This document shows, piece by piece, positions 1 through 50,906 of a stretch of DNA of 64,000 nt. Under the pieces are notes generated by a model. The model did no database searches, had not been told where the DNA came from, and saw nothing but the letters and a program-made list of their open reading frames with translations. The DNA comes from Actinomycetospora soli (GTDB lineage Bacteria; Actinomycetota; Actinomycetes; Mycobacteriales; Pseudonocardiaceae). The stretch is taken from positions 248,001 to 312,000 of the forward strand of contig NZ_JAJNDA010000002.1 in NCBI RefSeq assembly GCF_021026295.1, written 5' to 3'. Each line of letters starts with the position of its first letter. Position 1 is the stretch's first letter. The position numbers and the translations under genes are program-made.

Positions 1-2437
1 GCTGCGTGAGCCACGACGCGAGGTTGAGCAGCTCGACCGCGAGCGACTCCCCGTCGGTCCACTCCTCCCGCGGGCTGCCGGGACGGGGCAGCGACATCCC
101 CTGCATCGTCAGGACGGTGAGGCGGTAGTCCTCGTCGAGCACCCCCGGGTCGCCGACGGGGCTCTCGTCCGGACCGCGCGGGTCCTCCGGGTCGAGCGTG
201 CGCTCCGGGAACAGCAGCGCGGCCTGCGGCAGCTCGCGCCGCTCCTCGAGGAAGTCGGCGACGACGTCGGCGTGCTCCTCGCCCTCCCGCGCGTGGCGGC
301 GCAGCGTGGCGATGACCTGGCCCGGGTCCCGGTGCTGCCCGCCGCCCACCTCGCGGACCGCGCGCAGCAGCACGATCCGGGTGTGCGGGAGCCGCGCCAC
401 GTCGTAGGGCAGCAGCCCGGTGAGCACGTCGAGCACCAGCCGACGCCGGGTGGCGGCGGCGAGCGAGCGCTCGCGGCGCCACGCCTTCTCGGGGTCGTCC
501 TCGTCGAGGAAGTGCTCGCGGCGGGGCTCGGCGACGACGCGGTACGGGTTGAGGATGCCGGGATCGGCGCCGAGCAGGTGGATGTGGCGGGAGAACGGCG
601 CCAGCTCCGGCACCCGGGTCAGGGCCGCGAGCGGACCCGACGGGTCGAGCACCGTCCACCGCGCCCCGGCGCGCAGCGTCTTGTAGACCATCAGCCCGGT
701 GAGGAACGACTTCCCGGAGCCCAGGCCGCCGACCACCGCGGTGAGCCCGGACGCGCGGCGGACCTCCTGCGCCATCCACGGGTCCCAGGCCACCGGACGA
801 CGGGTCGCGGTGCAGGTCTCGCCGAGCAGCACCCCGCGCCGGTCGCCGACGCTGGCCGAGGCGGCGGGGACCCCCGCCGCGACCCAGGTGACGGAGCCGC
901 GCCGCCGGTAGGCGGTGGACGCGAGCGGCTCGCCGGGGATGAACTCCCGGGCGTAGGCGTACTGGGCCTCGGGGTGCTCGAGGGCGACCCGCGGGCGGTA
1001 GAGGTCGAGCAGCTGCTGGGCGCGGGTCAGGGTCTCGGCCTCGTCGCGACCGGCCACGGCGACCCGCCACCAGCCGTAGACCCGGGTGTTGAGCTGGGTC
1101 AGCCCGCCGGAGAGCTCGTCCTCGATCTGCAGCACCCGGTCGGCCTGGCGCTCCAGCGACATCGGCGGGTCCAGGTCGTGGTCGTGCGTGTAGTGCCGGA
1201 TCTGGCTGCGCACCTTGCCCATCTGGCGCTGCAGCTCCCCCGAGACCTCCTCGGGGCGGCGGACGTAGATCCGCGCCGACCACTCGACCGGGAACGGGAG
1301 CCGGTCGCTGCGCTGCATCCAGGGGTCGTCGGCCTCGGGGATGCGCAGCGAGTCCATCAGCCCGACCGAGAGCACGGCGACGTGCCGCGACACCGGGTGC
1401 AGCCCCTGCCGCCCCTCGACCTGCACCGTCGGGGCGTAGGGCTCCTGGTGCATGGACACGCCGTCGGTGAACGCGGCGAGGTCCTCGGTCTCCCAGGCCG
1501 TGCCGGGCTCCGCGCTGACGTGCTGCGGCGCCGGCAGCCCGAGCGCGCACGAGCGGTGCATCAGCCAGGCCATGTCCTCCGCGGTGCACGGCACGCCGTC
1601 GAGTCCCGGCCCGCCGACCAGGGCGTCGACGTGGGCGATCTCGGTCTCCAGCGCCGTGAGCTCGGCGTTCGCCGCGCTCGGCAGCACCCGGTGCAGGACC
1701 GGGGCCGCCGTCTCCAGCCACCGGTCGACCACCGAGCGGCCCGAGACCTCGACGCCGAGGAACACCTCCTTGTCGGCCATCGACAGGCCCATCAGGTGGT
1801 GCTGCTCGCCGGTGACGAACTCCTCCCAGGACAGCGCCCCGGGCACGTCGGGCAGCCGGCCCGGCGAGTTGCGGTCGAACGCCTCCGCCCACCGCGCGAC
1901 GGGGAACGGCCGGCTCGTGACCCGCAGGTGCACCCAGCGGCCCTGCAGCTCGCCGAGCTGCGTGGCGATGCGGCGGATGAGCGACTCGCGCTGCGGGTCG
2001 GAGCGGAAGCTCCAGGGCTGCGCGGCCAGCCGGTACCACGCGGTGACCGTCGAGCCGGTGCGCGCGATGTTGCCGTCGATCGAGCGCAGGGCGATCGCGG
2101 AGCGGTACCCGGGCGCGGCCGAGGCGCCCGCCAGGGACCGGCCGCGGCGGCGGGCCGTCGTCGTCCGGGGCCGGGGGCGGCGCAGGCCCTCCGCCGGCGT
2201 CTCCCGGTCCTGCTCGGGCCGCTCGATGCGGTCGGGGTCGAGCGGGCGGTCGTCCGGGCGGTCGTCGGTCGGCGCGAGGTCGTCGCGGTCGACGGGCACG
2301 ACCTCGGCCGGGGTGGCCGGGAAGCCCCCCGGGAACGTGCCCCACCCGGCGTCGGGGGCGGGTTCGGGACCGGACTCGCGGGCCTCGGGCCAGGGCGCGC
2401 GGCGGCCCCACCCGCCGTCAGGACCTCCCCGGCGCAC
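1..2437 (-). CDS. VirB4-like conjugation/secretion ATPase (3' end beyond window)
   Basis: The reading frame is open from a GTG at 2437 to the left edge, so at least 812 codons are present and the C-terminus is missing. The GTG follows GGGGAGGG by about 7 nt and overlaps the end of the upstream gene by 20 nt. A Walker A motif, GGLGSGKSFLT, lies near residues 569-579 (DNA about 702-731). Near the edge is a long segment around LDEDYRLTVLTMQG and REEWTDGESLAVELL, which is typical of the large ATP-binding proteins found beside SCO6880-like genes in Streptomyces and relatives. The N-terminal 90 residues are Pro/Asp/Arg-rich and probably disordered. The family powers type IV-secretion-like or conjugative transfer at the membrane; the substrate here is unknown. 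It is the last visible gene of a three-gene minus-strand operon. Confidence 0.85.
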   Translation of the reverse strand, partial: MRRGGPDGGWGRRAPWPEARESGPEPAPDAGWGTFPGGFPATPAEVVPVDRDDLAPTDDRPDDRPLDPDRIERPEQDRETPAEGLRRPRPRTTTARRRGRSLAGASAAPGYRSAIALRSIDGNIARTGSTVTAWYRLAAQPWSFRSDPQRESLIRRIATQLGELQGRWVHLRVTSRPFPVARWAEAFDRNSPGRLPDVPGALSWEEFVTGEQHHLMGLSMADKEVFLGVEVSGRSVVDRWLETAAPVLHRVLPSAANAELTALETEIAHVDALVGGPGLDGVPCTAEDMAWLMHRSCALGLPAPQHVSAEPGTAWETEDLAAFTDGVSMHQEPYAPTVQVEGRQGLHPVSRHVAVLSVGLMDSLRIPEADDPWMQRSDRLPFPVEWSARIYVRRPEEVSGELQRQMGKVRSQIRHYTHDHDLDPPMSLERQADRVLQIEDELSGGLTQLNTRVYGWWRVAVAGRDEAETLTRAQQLLDLYRPRVALEHPEAQYAYAREFIPGEPLASTAYRRRGSVTWVAAGVPAASASVGDRRGVLLGETCTATRRPVAWDPWMAQEVRRASGLTAVVGGLGSGKSFLTGLMVYKTLRAGARWTVLDPSGPLAALTRVPELAPFSRHIHLLGADPGILNPYRVVAEPRREHFLDEDDPEKAWRRERSLAAATRRRLVLDVLTGLLPYDVARLPHTRIVLLRAVREVGGGQHRDPGQVIATLRRHAREGEEHADVVADFLEERRELPQAALLFPERTLDPEDPRGPDESPVGDPGVLDEDYRLTVLTMQGMSLPRPGSPREEWTDGESLAVELLNLASWLTQ

Positions 2438-48356: not shown

Positions 48357-49649
48357 TCATGGTCCGGCTCGGCTGGTGTAGGTGTGTCCGGTCGGGGTGG
48401 TGGTCCGGACGGTGTGCGGATGCGGCCCGAAGCCGTCGTGGAGCAGTTCGGTGACCCACCCGGGCAGTTCTTTGAGGTGGTTGCCGCGCACGCAGTTCCC
48501 GCGCCCGTTGCCCAGGCTGGTCGGGCCACCGGCCTTCGAGCCCTTGATGTGGTCGGTATGCCGGATCGGCGCCCCGCAGAACGGGTCGCGGCACATGCCG
48601 TGGTCGCGCAGGGCGATCAGGGTGGCGAGGAATCCGTCGAAGTAGCGGCGGCGGGGGTCGCCGCCGACCAGGCCACCGTGGGCGGGGTGGGCGAACAGCC
48701 GCCGCCACCACCGGTGCCCGCCGGTGTGGCGCAGCAGGTCGGTGACGATCCCCGCCGGCAAGGGTCCGTGCCCGACGAGTTCGCCGGGGCTGGCGCTGTC
48801 GGGGTCGGTGATCGCGTCGAGCGGGAGGACGATGCCGACCTCGACGTTGACGTCCTCGGCCAACACTTGTCCGGTGAGTCGTTCGACGAGGGTGTCGGCG
48901 ATGATCTGGTCGCGGGTGCGGTCGTCGGTGTCCCCGGTCGCGATGAGGCTGTCGGCGTATTTCCGGAGGGCGGCGAGGCAGGCCACACCCTGCTCCACCG
49001 GCAGCAGCCCCGACAGCACGCTCATGGTGTCCGGGGCGGGGCGCAGCGTCACCCGCCGGTCCTGGCGGGCCTTGCGGGCGCGGTCGGTGAAGCCTTGCGG
49101 GTCGGCCTGGTAGGCGAGTTTCTTCACCGCCGCCTCCGCCTGTTTACGGCCCATGCCCTCGAGGCCGAGTTCGGCGATCTCCTTGTCCACCAACGCCCGC
49201 AGCTCCGGGTCCAGGTGCGAGGTCACGGACACGACGTGTTCGGCGAGCTGCTCCGAGATGCGCCCGACCACCAGCAGCGCCCGCGTGCACGGCAGATCCG
49301 TGGCGAGTGCACGCGCGACGCGGAGGCGACGGTCGCCGATGTGGGGGGAGACGTGCGCGGCCAGCGCGATCTGGTCGGCGATCCCCCGGCCGAGCTTCTC
49401 CGGATCCAACCGACCCTCGGCGACGAGTTCGATCTGGGCTTCGACCTGAGCGCGACCGAACGCGACGATCGCGGTGTGCTGCGCCGCCGCCAGCGCCGCC
49501 CGGGCTCGTTCCAGGACGGCGATGCGGTCGATGCACGCCGCGCCGCCGTCGGACAGCGGGTCGGTGGGTAGCTCGGCGAGTTCGGCGAGGCGGGCGAGCA
49601 ACGCGGTCAGCTCCACACTGACCGGGTCCACCACCTCGTTCGAACTCAT
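48357..49649 (-). CDS. DUF222 / HNH endonuclease protein (13E12 repeat family)
   Basis: This 430-residue protein has the DUF222 helical domain (LERARAALAAAQHTAIVAFGRAQ ... DRRLRVARALATDLP) and a C-terminal HNH nuclease motif: CRDPFCGAPIRHTDHIKGSKAGG followed by NCVRGNHLKEL. The family is the multicopy 13E12/REP-associated group of actinobacteria. Its ATG lies inside a near-consensus LexA box and 6 nt after a TAGCTT -10 box, so it should be SOS-induced and leaderless. Biological role is unproven; a DNA-damage-linked or selfish nuclease is likely. Confidence 0.87.
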   Translation of the reverse strand: MSSNEVVDPVSVELTALLARLAELAELPTDPLSDGGAACIDRIAVLERARAALAAAQHTAIVAFGRAQVEAQIELVAEGRLDPEKLGRGIADQIALAAHVSPHIGDRRLRVARALATDLPCTRALLVVGRISEQLAEHVVSVTSHLDPELRALVDKEIAELGLEGMGRKQAEAAVKKLAYQADPQGFTDRARKARQDRRVTLRPAPDTMSVLSGLLPVEQGVACLAALRKYADSLIATGDTDDRTRDQIIADTLVERLTGQVLAEDVNVEVGIVLPLDAITDPDSASPGELVGHGPLPAGIVTDLLRHTGGHRWWRRLFAHPAHGGLVGGDPRRRYFDGFLATLIALRDHGMCRDPFCGAPIRHTDHIKGSKAGGPTSLGNGRGNCVRGNHLKELPGWVTELLHDGFGPHPHTVRTTTPTGHTYTSRAGP

Positions 49650-49661
49650 GTTCGCAAGCTA
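49640..49661 (-). promoter_or_regulatory. LexA (SOS) box and leaderless -10 at the DUF222-HNH start
   Basis: TCGAACTCATGTTCGC (plus strand, 49640-49655) matches the actinobacterial LexA consensus TCGAAC-N4-GTTCGA at 11 of 12 specified positions. The ATG start (49649-49647) lies in its spacer. On the minus strand TAGCTT (49661-49656) ends 6 nt before that ATG. LexA bound here would cover the transcription start. Confidence 0.75.
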
Positions 49662-49695
49662 GCAGCCACCCCCGACAATCACGCTCCGGTCGAGG

Positions 49696-50745
49696 TCAGA
49701 GGGTCAGGCCCACCACCACGGCTGCGGCGCCCAGGCAGGCGGCGCCCACACCGAGGTAGAGCGAACGACCCACCCCGTCCGCCCGGAACATCGCGAAGGC
49801 CCCGACGCCGAGCGCGACCACCCCGCACAGCGCGCCGATGAGGCTGAACAGCGGCGTGCTGCCCAGCGTCTCGCTCGGCATCACCCGCGGCAGCAGCCCG
49901 GACCAGGGTGCGAGCCCCAGCAGGACGCCGACCGCGCCGACGATCGTGCCCACGAGACCGACGCGGCTCTCCGACCGCTGTTCCCAGGGCAGAGGCCGGC
50001 GGGCCGCGGCCGGCGTGCGACCACGCGCGGGGCCGACGCCGGTCGACCCGTAGGTCCCCGCACCGAAGGCGCCCGGACGCACCGCGGGCGCCCGGTGCGG
50101 ACGCACCGCGAGCGGCTGGAGGGCCGGCGCGGCCGACTCGTCCGTCGCGCGCCGCTGACGGGGCAGCGCGGCCGCGCGGTCGTCCGCCCGCCGAGTGCGG
50201 TCGAGGTCGGTCCGCCGCACGGGGAGCGTCACCGGCTCGTCCTCCGGCCCCACCGTCGGCAGCGACCCCGACGGGTGTGGCGACCCACTGCCGTCCAGTG
50301 CCCGCCGTGGGCCACCGCTGACATCCGCCGACCCCACCGCCGGCAGCGTCCCCGACGAGTGTGGCGACCCACTGCCGTCCAGTGCCCGCCGTGGGCCACC
50401 GCTGACATCCGCCGACCCCACCGCCGGCAGCGACTCCGACGGGTGTGGCGACCGCGCGTCGTCCGCCGACCCGCCCTGCACCGGGATCGCCCCGGAGGGC
50501 GCACCCGTCGTCGGGAAGGGCGGGGGCAGGCGACGGAAGCCGGAGGGCGGGGAGTCGAGGGACCCGCGCTGCTGCATCGGGACGTCGGCGAACTCGGTGG
50601 ACGGCGCCTCGGGGGCGCGGTGGCGGCCGCCCTCCCGGCGCGGCGGCGTGTAGTCGGCGGGCCCCGCCGTCCCACCGGCCTCGCGACCGAAGCCGCGTCC
50701 CCCGGTGGCCCGGTGCCGGGCCTGCTGCGACTCCTGCGCGTGCAT
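49696..50745 (-). CDS. membrane protein with long low-complexity N-terminus and 28-residue tandem repeats
   Basis: ATG 50745 is preceded by GGGGGAG at 9 nt; a GTG 9 nt upstream is equally possible. The 349-residue product has about 235 polar, Pro/Gly/Ser/Arg-rich residues followed by three helices at the C-terminus (VGLVGTIVGAVGVLLGLAP, PLFSLIGALCGVVALGVGAFAMF, LYLGVGAACLGAAAVVVGLTL). Within the disordered part two nearly identical 28-residue units (core SPHSSGTLPAVGSADVSGG) are arranged in tandem. No family is recognised. It resembles the variable cytoplasmic tails of actinobacterial membrane proteins; function is unknown. Confidence 0.65.
   Translation of the reverse strand: MHAQESQQARHRATGGRGFGREAGGTAGPADYTPPRREGGRHRAPEAPSTEFADVPMQQRGSLDSPPSGFRRLPPPFPTTGAPSGAIPVQGGSADDARSPHPSESLPAVGSADVSGGPRRALDGSGSPHSSGTLPAVGSADVSGGPRRALDGSGSPHPSGSLPTVGPEDEPVTLPVRRTDLDRTRRADDRAAALPRQRRATDESAAPALQPLAVRPHRAPAVRPGAFGAGTYGSTGVGPARGRTPAAARRPLPWEQRSESRVGLVGTIVGAVGVLLGLAPWSGLLPRVMPSETLGSTPLFSLIGALCGVVALGVGAFAMFRADGVGRSLYLGVGAACLGAAAVVVGLTL
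50248..50453. repeat. 84-bp tandem repeat inside the membrane-protein gene
   Basis: Two full 84-bp units (50275-50358 and 50359-50442) differ at only about three positions near their ends. A partial unit precedes (50248-50274) and a short one follows. Because 84 is a multiple of three, copy-number change keeps the reading frame. Confidence 0.85.
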
Positions 50746-50906
50746 GTCGACCACTCCCCCGAACAGACGTACACGCGCCGCCACGTGCGCGGTCCCGGTC
50801 ACTCTGTCCCCACCAGCACCCGAAGCGTTACCGCTGCCACCCGCCCGGCCCAGCAGGTGTGCCGGACCGGGGGACCCGCGAGCGGAAACGCCGACGACAC
50901 CCTCCG

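Follow-up and report, generated by a model that had tools for sequence, protein, structure and literature searches.

A probable PafBC- and LexA-controlled promoter over the start codon of a multicopy DUF222 gene in Actinomycetospora soli

The window analysed here is a 64 kb stretch of Actinomycetospora soli DNA, and its DUF222 gene (48357..49649, minus strand) is probably a leaderless gene whose activator is PafBC and whose repressor, LexA, acts right at the start codon, a reading of the sequence in which one composite promoter-operator would act as an AND gate. The two motifs stand at a fixed spacing, they are conserved and coupled to DUF222 genes, and both lexA and pafC are present in the genome. 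The ORF encodes 430 aa (ATG at 49649-49647, TGA at 48359-48357), and its product matches PF02720 of Pfam at 71 bits (cut-off 24.4) over residues 48-308. Pfam still lists DUF222 as a family of unknown function; the module, which mostly precedes DUF222 genes, ties the family to both damage pathways and predicts dominant control by LexA, giving this widespread multicopy family a testable role as a damage-triggered DNA-binding nuclease or a spreading unit.

In the proposed mechanism, PafBC activated by single-stranded DNA would let sigma-A RNA polymerase use TGTCGG-N10-TAGCTT, and the RNA would begin at the A of the ATG. LexA would occupy the palindrome (about -5 to +9), covering both the point of initiation and the first codons, and would block transcription until RecA-stimulated self-cleavage clears it from the operator. 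Expression would need PafBC to be present and LexA to have left, and this AND gate, in which LexA dominates, may keep a probably harmful, putatively nucleolytic DNA-binding protein silent; activator and repressor would thus respond to the same injury via different sensors at one promoter. With LexA dominant, no expression is predicted without RecA even where PafBC works, and this predicted need fits M. tuberculosis, where mitomycin C induces five putative HNH endonucleases in a RecA-dependent manner, their DUF222 identity being unstated in the portion of the source available to us (PMC8151990).

The promoter, the SOS box and their genomic context

The SOS box lies at 49640..49655 with no strand assigned, reading TCGAACTCATGTTCGC on the plus strand and GCGAACATGAGTTCGA on the minus strand, and covers the ATG as well as codons 2-3. 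It differs from TCGAAC-N4-GTTCGA by one mismatch at the outermost base, and its 14-bp core is exact, which agrees with the original prediction of a box one base off the actinobacterial SOS consensus that includes the ATG. The operator sequence dictates the opening residues of the protein, and loci with the start codon inside the box begin with M-S-S, M-R-S, M-G-S or M-C-S.

The minus-strand sequence 5' of the gene is TGTCGGGGGTGGCTGCTAGCTTGCGAACATGAGTTCGA. The -10 element TAGCTT (TANNNT), which had also been noticed in the original prediction, is located 6 nt before the ATG at 49656..49661 on the minus strand; because it spans -12 to -7 from the A of the ATG, transcription is predicted from that A (+1). 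According to the accessible part of a paper on leaderless transcripts, TANNNT is found 7-12 bp before 73% of primary starts in M. tuberculosis (PMC3898074). Missed by the original prediction was the PafBC (RecA-NDp) element TGTCGG at 49672..49677 (minus), 10 nt from TAGCTT, which makes TGTCGG-N10-TAGCTT exact at 49677-49656. As far as the consulted sections of the literature describe it, PafBC serves a RecA-independent damage pathway as a sigma-adaptation activator, triggered by ssDNA, that works at a -26 motif with sigma-A polymerase (PMC11804915). Its motif has been printed as TGTCGG-10N-TA-3N-T in the excerpt of one paper (PMC8151990), and at sequence level the window promoter matches this PafBC-regulon motif (TGTCGG-10N-TANNNT); a second form, tTGTCRgtg-8-TannnT in an excerpt of another (PMC5656591), is fitted with one base off. 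The genome encodes a PafC-like protein (PafC HTH, WYL and WCX).

Within the 64 kb window, the box of the DUF222 gene is the sole site at up to one mismatch from TCGAACNNNNGTTCGA. At up to two mismatches, TCGAACNNNNGTTCGA occurs at 9 places versus a shuffle mean of 2.83, and TCGAACNNNNGTTCGC at 10 places versus 8.95 by chance; as the latter count is at chance level, the loose matches to TCGAACNNNNGTTCGC in the window are uninformative and the exact match is informative. The exact core CGAACNNNNGTTCG is present at 43 places across the genome (6.52 Mb), versus 2 for the backwards pattern, including 15 sites at DUF222 starts and 28 elsewhere, several of which fall within reading frames and may be chance. 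Ten proteins beside ten of these 28 sites were scanned for families: the exact core stands beside recA, ruvA, an AlkB-like 2OG-Fe(II) oxygenase gene and a dnaE2-like PHP/pol III alpha gene, as well as a radical-SAM gene and its divergently oriented neighbour, an acyl-CoA dehydrogenase gene, and the other scanned neighbours are dnaB, one gene each with a DUF4262 and a GNAT match, and one gene without family match. LexA itself is encoded (single match, LexA_DNA_bind, 88.6 bits), with three one-mismatch boxes 5' of lexA. Judged by this genomic context, the box is the SOS box of A. soli, which upholds the earlier claim that the palindrome is a LexA box.

A SOS box was also observed at the start region of dnaB (L042), which in addition matches homing-endonuclease (intein-like) models. 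A similar TGTCGG element with a SOS box occurs at L045 (G000:C33:196374) and L052 (G000:C55:287621), where the genes are a DUF4262 gene and a gene without known family.

DUF222 copies in the genome and in other genomes

The multicopy nature of the family, also claimed in the original prediction, was recovered as 19 DUF222 rows that correspond to 14 distinct loci in this genome. Exact CGAAC-N4-GTTCG is present at the start in 14/14 of them; the scan of other DUF222 genes proposed with that prediction was therefore positive throughout, and no family member without the box was found in this genome. Type A comprises 4 loci, including the window gene, with the ATG inside the box; type B comprises 7 loci with an in-frame GTG inside the box; type C comprises 3 loci, together with one contig-end copy outside the 14, with the box over the -10. 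TGTC is found at the PafBC distance from a TANNNT in types A and C, and neither a PafBC element nor a clear TANNNT -10 was recognised by eye in the upstream sequence of type B (7/14 loci). The four type A copies are 92-98.5% identical across their shared parts. One of them, L050 (G000:C44), has a frame shift at the HNH-like tail that leads into a long unrelated C-terminus, being either a broken copy or an assembly error.

The composite pattern, consisting of PafBC element, -10 and SOS box, was searched in 394 class genomes and found at 26 sites in 14 of them, while the reversed control gave 0. A scored DUF222 gene follows 21/26 of the sites, 20 by profile on the ORF from that ATG, among which L095 and L099 come from profile-building loci and 4 belong to this genome, and one (L092) by the Pfam cut-off. 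The remaining sites are L093, DUF222-like in another frame by eye, L094 and L110 at contig ends, and L096 and L102, with short proteins whose relative L175 falls below the Pfam DUF222 cut-off.

When the PafBC part was not imposed, the pattern of -10 and box matched at least 119 stretches, and 80 loci among the matches listed were analysed, belonging to Microbacterium, Mycobacterium and relatives, Geodermatophilus, Actinomycetospora, Acidimicrobiia, Egibacteraceae and others. Among these listed matches, TGTC stands at -23/-24 in 32/39 DUF222 loci, assigned by a profile rebuilt from first-round matches (E <1e-10) within the same 80 loci, versus 1/41 others, which include likely chance matches from other phyla; at any other offset, TGTC is found in at most 2 of the listed loci. 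The Fisher p for the coupling of TGTC to DUF222 among the matches listed is 2.3e-14, a value that overstates independence because the genes are related. The only non-DUF222 locus with TGTC (at -24) among the 80 listed, L155 of Mumia, has a downstream frame that by eye reads like a DinB-type, Y-family polymerase. The start codon lies in a SOS box with a fitting -10 and no PafBC element at -23/-24 in L132, L139/L163/L187, L157/L173/L196 and L135/L156/L189, and one of these groups resembles a cytosine methyltransferase by eye.

DUF222 matches were obtained in at least 111/148 sampled class genomes, and many genomes have ten or more. In the best DUF222 match from each of 30 genomes, the box was detected at up to one mismatch in 15/30, compared with a mean of 0.45 and a maximum of 3 for 29 control palindromes, and a PafBC-spaced element adjoins the best box in 7/30. 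A further 60 DUF222 genes of six genomes, chosen among the matches listed, gave the box at up to one mismatch in 27/60, versus a mean of 0.41 and a maximum of 4 for 29 palindromes of the same composition, and at up to two mismatches in 56/60, with the palindrome control covering up to one mismatch only. By genome, the counts at up to one mismatch are 9/10 (G012), 10/13 (G049), 7/9 (G082), 1/13 (G129), 0/10 (G118) and 0/5 (G102); in G118, G102 and nearly all of G129 the box is degenerate with 2 mismatches, beyond the one mismatch that the control covers. In 23/60 of these genes the box has the PafBC-spaced element next to it, versus about 0.24 expected, the expectation (about 0.004 per gene) being taken from the same loci, matches included. 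The element is found in 10/10 genes of G118, 5/5 of G102 and 8/13 of G049, and is absent at strict spacing from the sampled genes of G129 (0/13), G012 (0/10) and G082 (0/9). The PafBC element is not universal among DUF222 genes, and the uneven counts imply that some genomes lost one of the two elements by decay or never had it.

Conservation was followed within the genus in 23 type A genes from seven species, namely the 4 own genes and 19 relatives reaching the start, with short fragments and contig-end rows left out. TGTC is kept in 23/23, TANNNT in 22/23 and the exact box in 20/23, and the upstream flank is only 54% conserved. The window protein is 81% identical to the partial protein L146 of Actinomycetospora chiangmaiensis.

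The copied unit and its predicted protein

The stretch that the window copy has in common with the type A copy on C4 runs from promoter to stop codon at 48357..49683 (minus), i.e., -29..1297 relative to the box (1297 being the stop codon), at 95.2% identity by blastn. With the copy on C44, the shared stretch is -40..1307 at 98.5% identity (blastn), about 11 bases longer on each side. The copies on C4, C44 and C1 are alike among themselves to about -107 and the type C copies to -159; the type B copies are alike from a left edge somewhere between about -27 and -52 up to a point within the ORF, with B65b aligning in pieces. Within-species pairs of four relatives have their right edge at most 6 bases from the stop codon and left edges at -31 to -113. 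Because common sequence reaches about -100 to -113 in the pairs C4/C44, C4/C1, L243/L261 and L245/L262, the unit may really begin there and not at the promoter (-29), with the window copy shorter or diverged.

Overall, the copies end at unrelated flanks, with the left edge at about -27 to about -110 (type C to -159), and no common target sequence was seen by eye in the flanks of this genome's copies. An empty site was found in two relatives, G395 (L274) and G398 (L273), where the two neighbouring genes of the window locus are adjacent without the unit. The unit is likewise missing at this locus in G402 (L276) and G399 (L277), it is present in G406, and the copy in G410 is split into two frames. 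From these alignments, the DUF222 gene seems to take the switch along when it is copied to other places in the genome. Relatives of the window protein were found in 5 phage and 7 plasmid records, all with <60% identity and <80% coverage; since these matches are weak, there is no sign that phages or plasmids of the searched collections spread the window copy.

In the type B copies L039, L051, L053, L054, L055, L058 and L004, the last codons and the stop come from flanking DNA and differ per copy. The neighbouring ORF of the window gene (49696-50802, minus) has an in-frame repeat at 50250-50450. The phage records MT835529, MT838347, MT835754, MT835582 and MT835650 are unannotated human-fecal contigs with distant relatives (30-37% identity).

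Residues 46-181 (49107..49514, minus) are predicted to form a ParB/Noc-like helix-turn-helix DNA-binding domain, according to AlphaFold2 models compared by VIA-align. The model of the window protein has a pLDDT of 68.2, below 50 over residues 310-394, and its best VIA-align match reaches Z 7.8 with an rmsd of 2.8 over 102 residues; rows 1-16 are all of the ParB/Noc/KorB type, and the first other row has Z 4.7. The model of a Mycobacteroides relative, L171, built from largely the same sequences, has a pLDDT of 74.8 and reaches Z 8.9 (rmsd 2.1, 103 residues), with its first 11 rows all of ParB/Noc type and the next row at 5.3. In VIA-align, helical models with Z under about 13 may show only a common arrangement; weight is given to the likeness here because, among the families that VIA-align lists, a single kind fills the top 16 rows for one model and the top 11 for the other, which suggests that the DUF222 protein carries a ParB/Noc-like DNA-binding domain. 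Foldseek gave no match at E 0.001 or better for either model, and its top row for the window model, a receptor, was dismissed as noise. In the PDB, a sequence search with a limit of E 1 gave a single row for the window protein, at E 0.74.

The original prediction described a DUF222-HNH gene, of which the DUF222 part stands. Pfam found no HNH domain in this protein, even with the limit relaxed to E 1; alignment to HNH-bearing relatives points to a divergent HNH-like C..C..H..C tail at residues 353-398 (48456..48593, minus). Six relatives were compared with Pfam HNH, of which L151 and L171 are over the cut-off, 3 are below it and L122 has no match. The tail of L171 resembles HNH nucleases at Z 4.7 and below in VIA-align, and that of the window model is too uncertain to match. 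PADLOC assigned none of 4 proteins to a defence system. An RNA-guided reading was rejected, as the NCBIfam IscB matches over the HNH stretch are weak, far below the cut-off and limited to 2/4 proteins.

Alternative readings and comparison with known systems

The gene might instead be an SOS gene under LexA alone on a sigma-A promoter, with TGTCGG being a chance or plain -35-like sequence. The seven type B copies of this genome, which have the box without TGTC, and the RecA dependence of the five putative M. tuberculosis HNH endonucleases would both suit such a gene. However, chance hardly accounts for TGTC standing at one fixed distance in 32/39 DUF222 loci versus 1/41 others with the same -10 and box (among the matches listed), or for its retention in 23/23 genes of the genus in which the flank is not kept, and we regard this explanation as unlikely. 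It is more improbable still that the palindrome, instead of being a LexA operator, is (also) bound by the DUF222 protein, as its target or for autoregulation. The box does lie inside the copied unit, and the models resemble ParB/Noc/KorB domains, which could bind palindromes; yet the same box precedes recA, ruvA, the dnaE2-like gene and others without DUF222, and it equals the published mycobacterial SOS box except for one outer base.

We give very little credence to the idea that the box has no regulatory role and was passively inherited by copying, kept by the coding of M-S-S. The 92-98.5% identity of the genome's four type A copies would suit such inheritance, but the box has a different register in each of the three DUF222 types (over the ATG, the GTG or the -10), further registers occur in DUF222 genes of other genomes, and the upstream half of the box is non-coding. 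Joint control by PafBC and LexA is the preferred reading.

The 13E12 repeat family of M. tuberculosis, which we take to consist of DUF222-HNH type genes, was reportedly placed in the LexA regulon by Davis 2002 and Smollett 2012. The excerpts at hand of two papers include 13E12 genes in that regulon (PMC4181829, PMC5005354), bearing out the original prediction on this point, and one of them counts 10 HNH-domain genes of the family, some in the LexA-controlled set (PMC4181829). The genes of A. soli resemble that family, as portrayed in these excerpts, in being multicopy, of putative DUF222-HNH type and equipped with a SOS box. Unlike the family as described there, the window gene combines a start codon in the box with a predicted leaderless -10 and a joined PafBC element; the module is found here in more than one family, and both the boundaries of the copies and an empty site are recognised.

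Dual control also has precedents. According to partial texts, mycobacterial recA has a PafBC promoter P1 and a LexA promoter P2 (PMC5656591, PMC11804915), and PafBC controls many LexA-controlled genes (PMC6789036). The DUF222 gene is like recA in that one gene would be under both damage pathways; in recA two separate promoters give two routes, whereas for the DUF222 gene one promoter with an AND gate is proposed. A precedent for joint control at one place is provided by the Rv2019c-Rv2017c operons of M. tuberculosis, where SOS boxes and a PafBC-binding motif control jointly; these are not described, in the available part of that paper, as DUF222 genes or as having an operator over the start codon, unlike the window gene (PMC8151990). 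The lexA gene of M. tuberculosis is also a leaderless SOS gene, for which the seen part of its description does not place the start codon inside the operator, unlike the window gene (PMC2897130).

Within the literature collection searched, PafBC was not found joined with 13E12, and PafBC, HNH and LexA come together in PMC8151990 (HNH once). The main text of a Streptomyces venezuelae LexA study, as far as it was available, mentions neither HNH nor DUF222 (PMC9380542). MSMEG_1275, whose over-expression is lethal to M. smegmatis and which is an HNH nuclease, was set aside as functional evidence, its DUF222 membership being unstated in the text at our disposal (PMC9416677). Judging by the portions of the papers considered, control of mycobacterial 13E12 genes by LexA has already been described and their damage-linked mobility suggested, and genes under both PafBC and LexA have been published too (PMC6789036, PMC8151990). 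New within the literature searched are the fused PafBC-LexA start-codon module and its link to DUF222 outside the mycobacteria; so are the extent of the unit that is copied, together with the empty site, and the model that resembles ParB/Noc.

A more tentative proposal, which we consider possible rather than probable, is that DUF222 genes are self-spreading single-gene elements (a ParB/Noc-like domain plus an HNH nuclease) that carry a two-key damage switch at their left end. If so, the copying of DUF222 units would be timed to DNA damage, when recombination is opened. Free-standing homing endonuclease genes also spread as a single gene without other machinery and can encode an HNH-type nuclease. 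The DUF222 genes would be similar to them as a single spreading gene with a putative HNH-type tail, and differ in that the unit has no recognised common target and has its own damage-controlled promoter inside it.

Finally, short DUF222-type proteins of 98-158 aa were observed under the composite switch at L096, L097, L098, L102, L103, L175, L179, L193, L195 and L184. On the same tentative proposal, such short stand-alone versions (about 100 aa), sharing the switch, could act as antagonists built into the system. They consist of the N-terminal helix and an HTH-like stretch followed by a stop, and in four that were scanned, three over the Pfam DUF222 cut-off and L175 below it, the match lies at profile positions 2-64 only.
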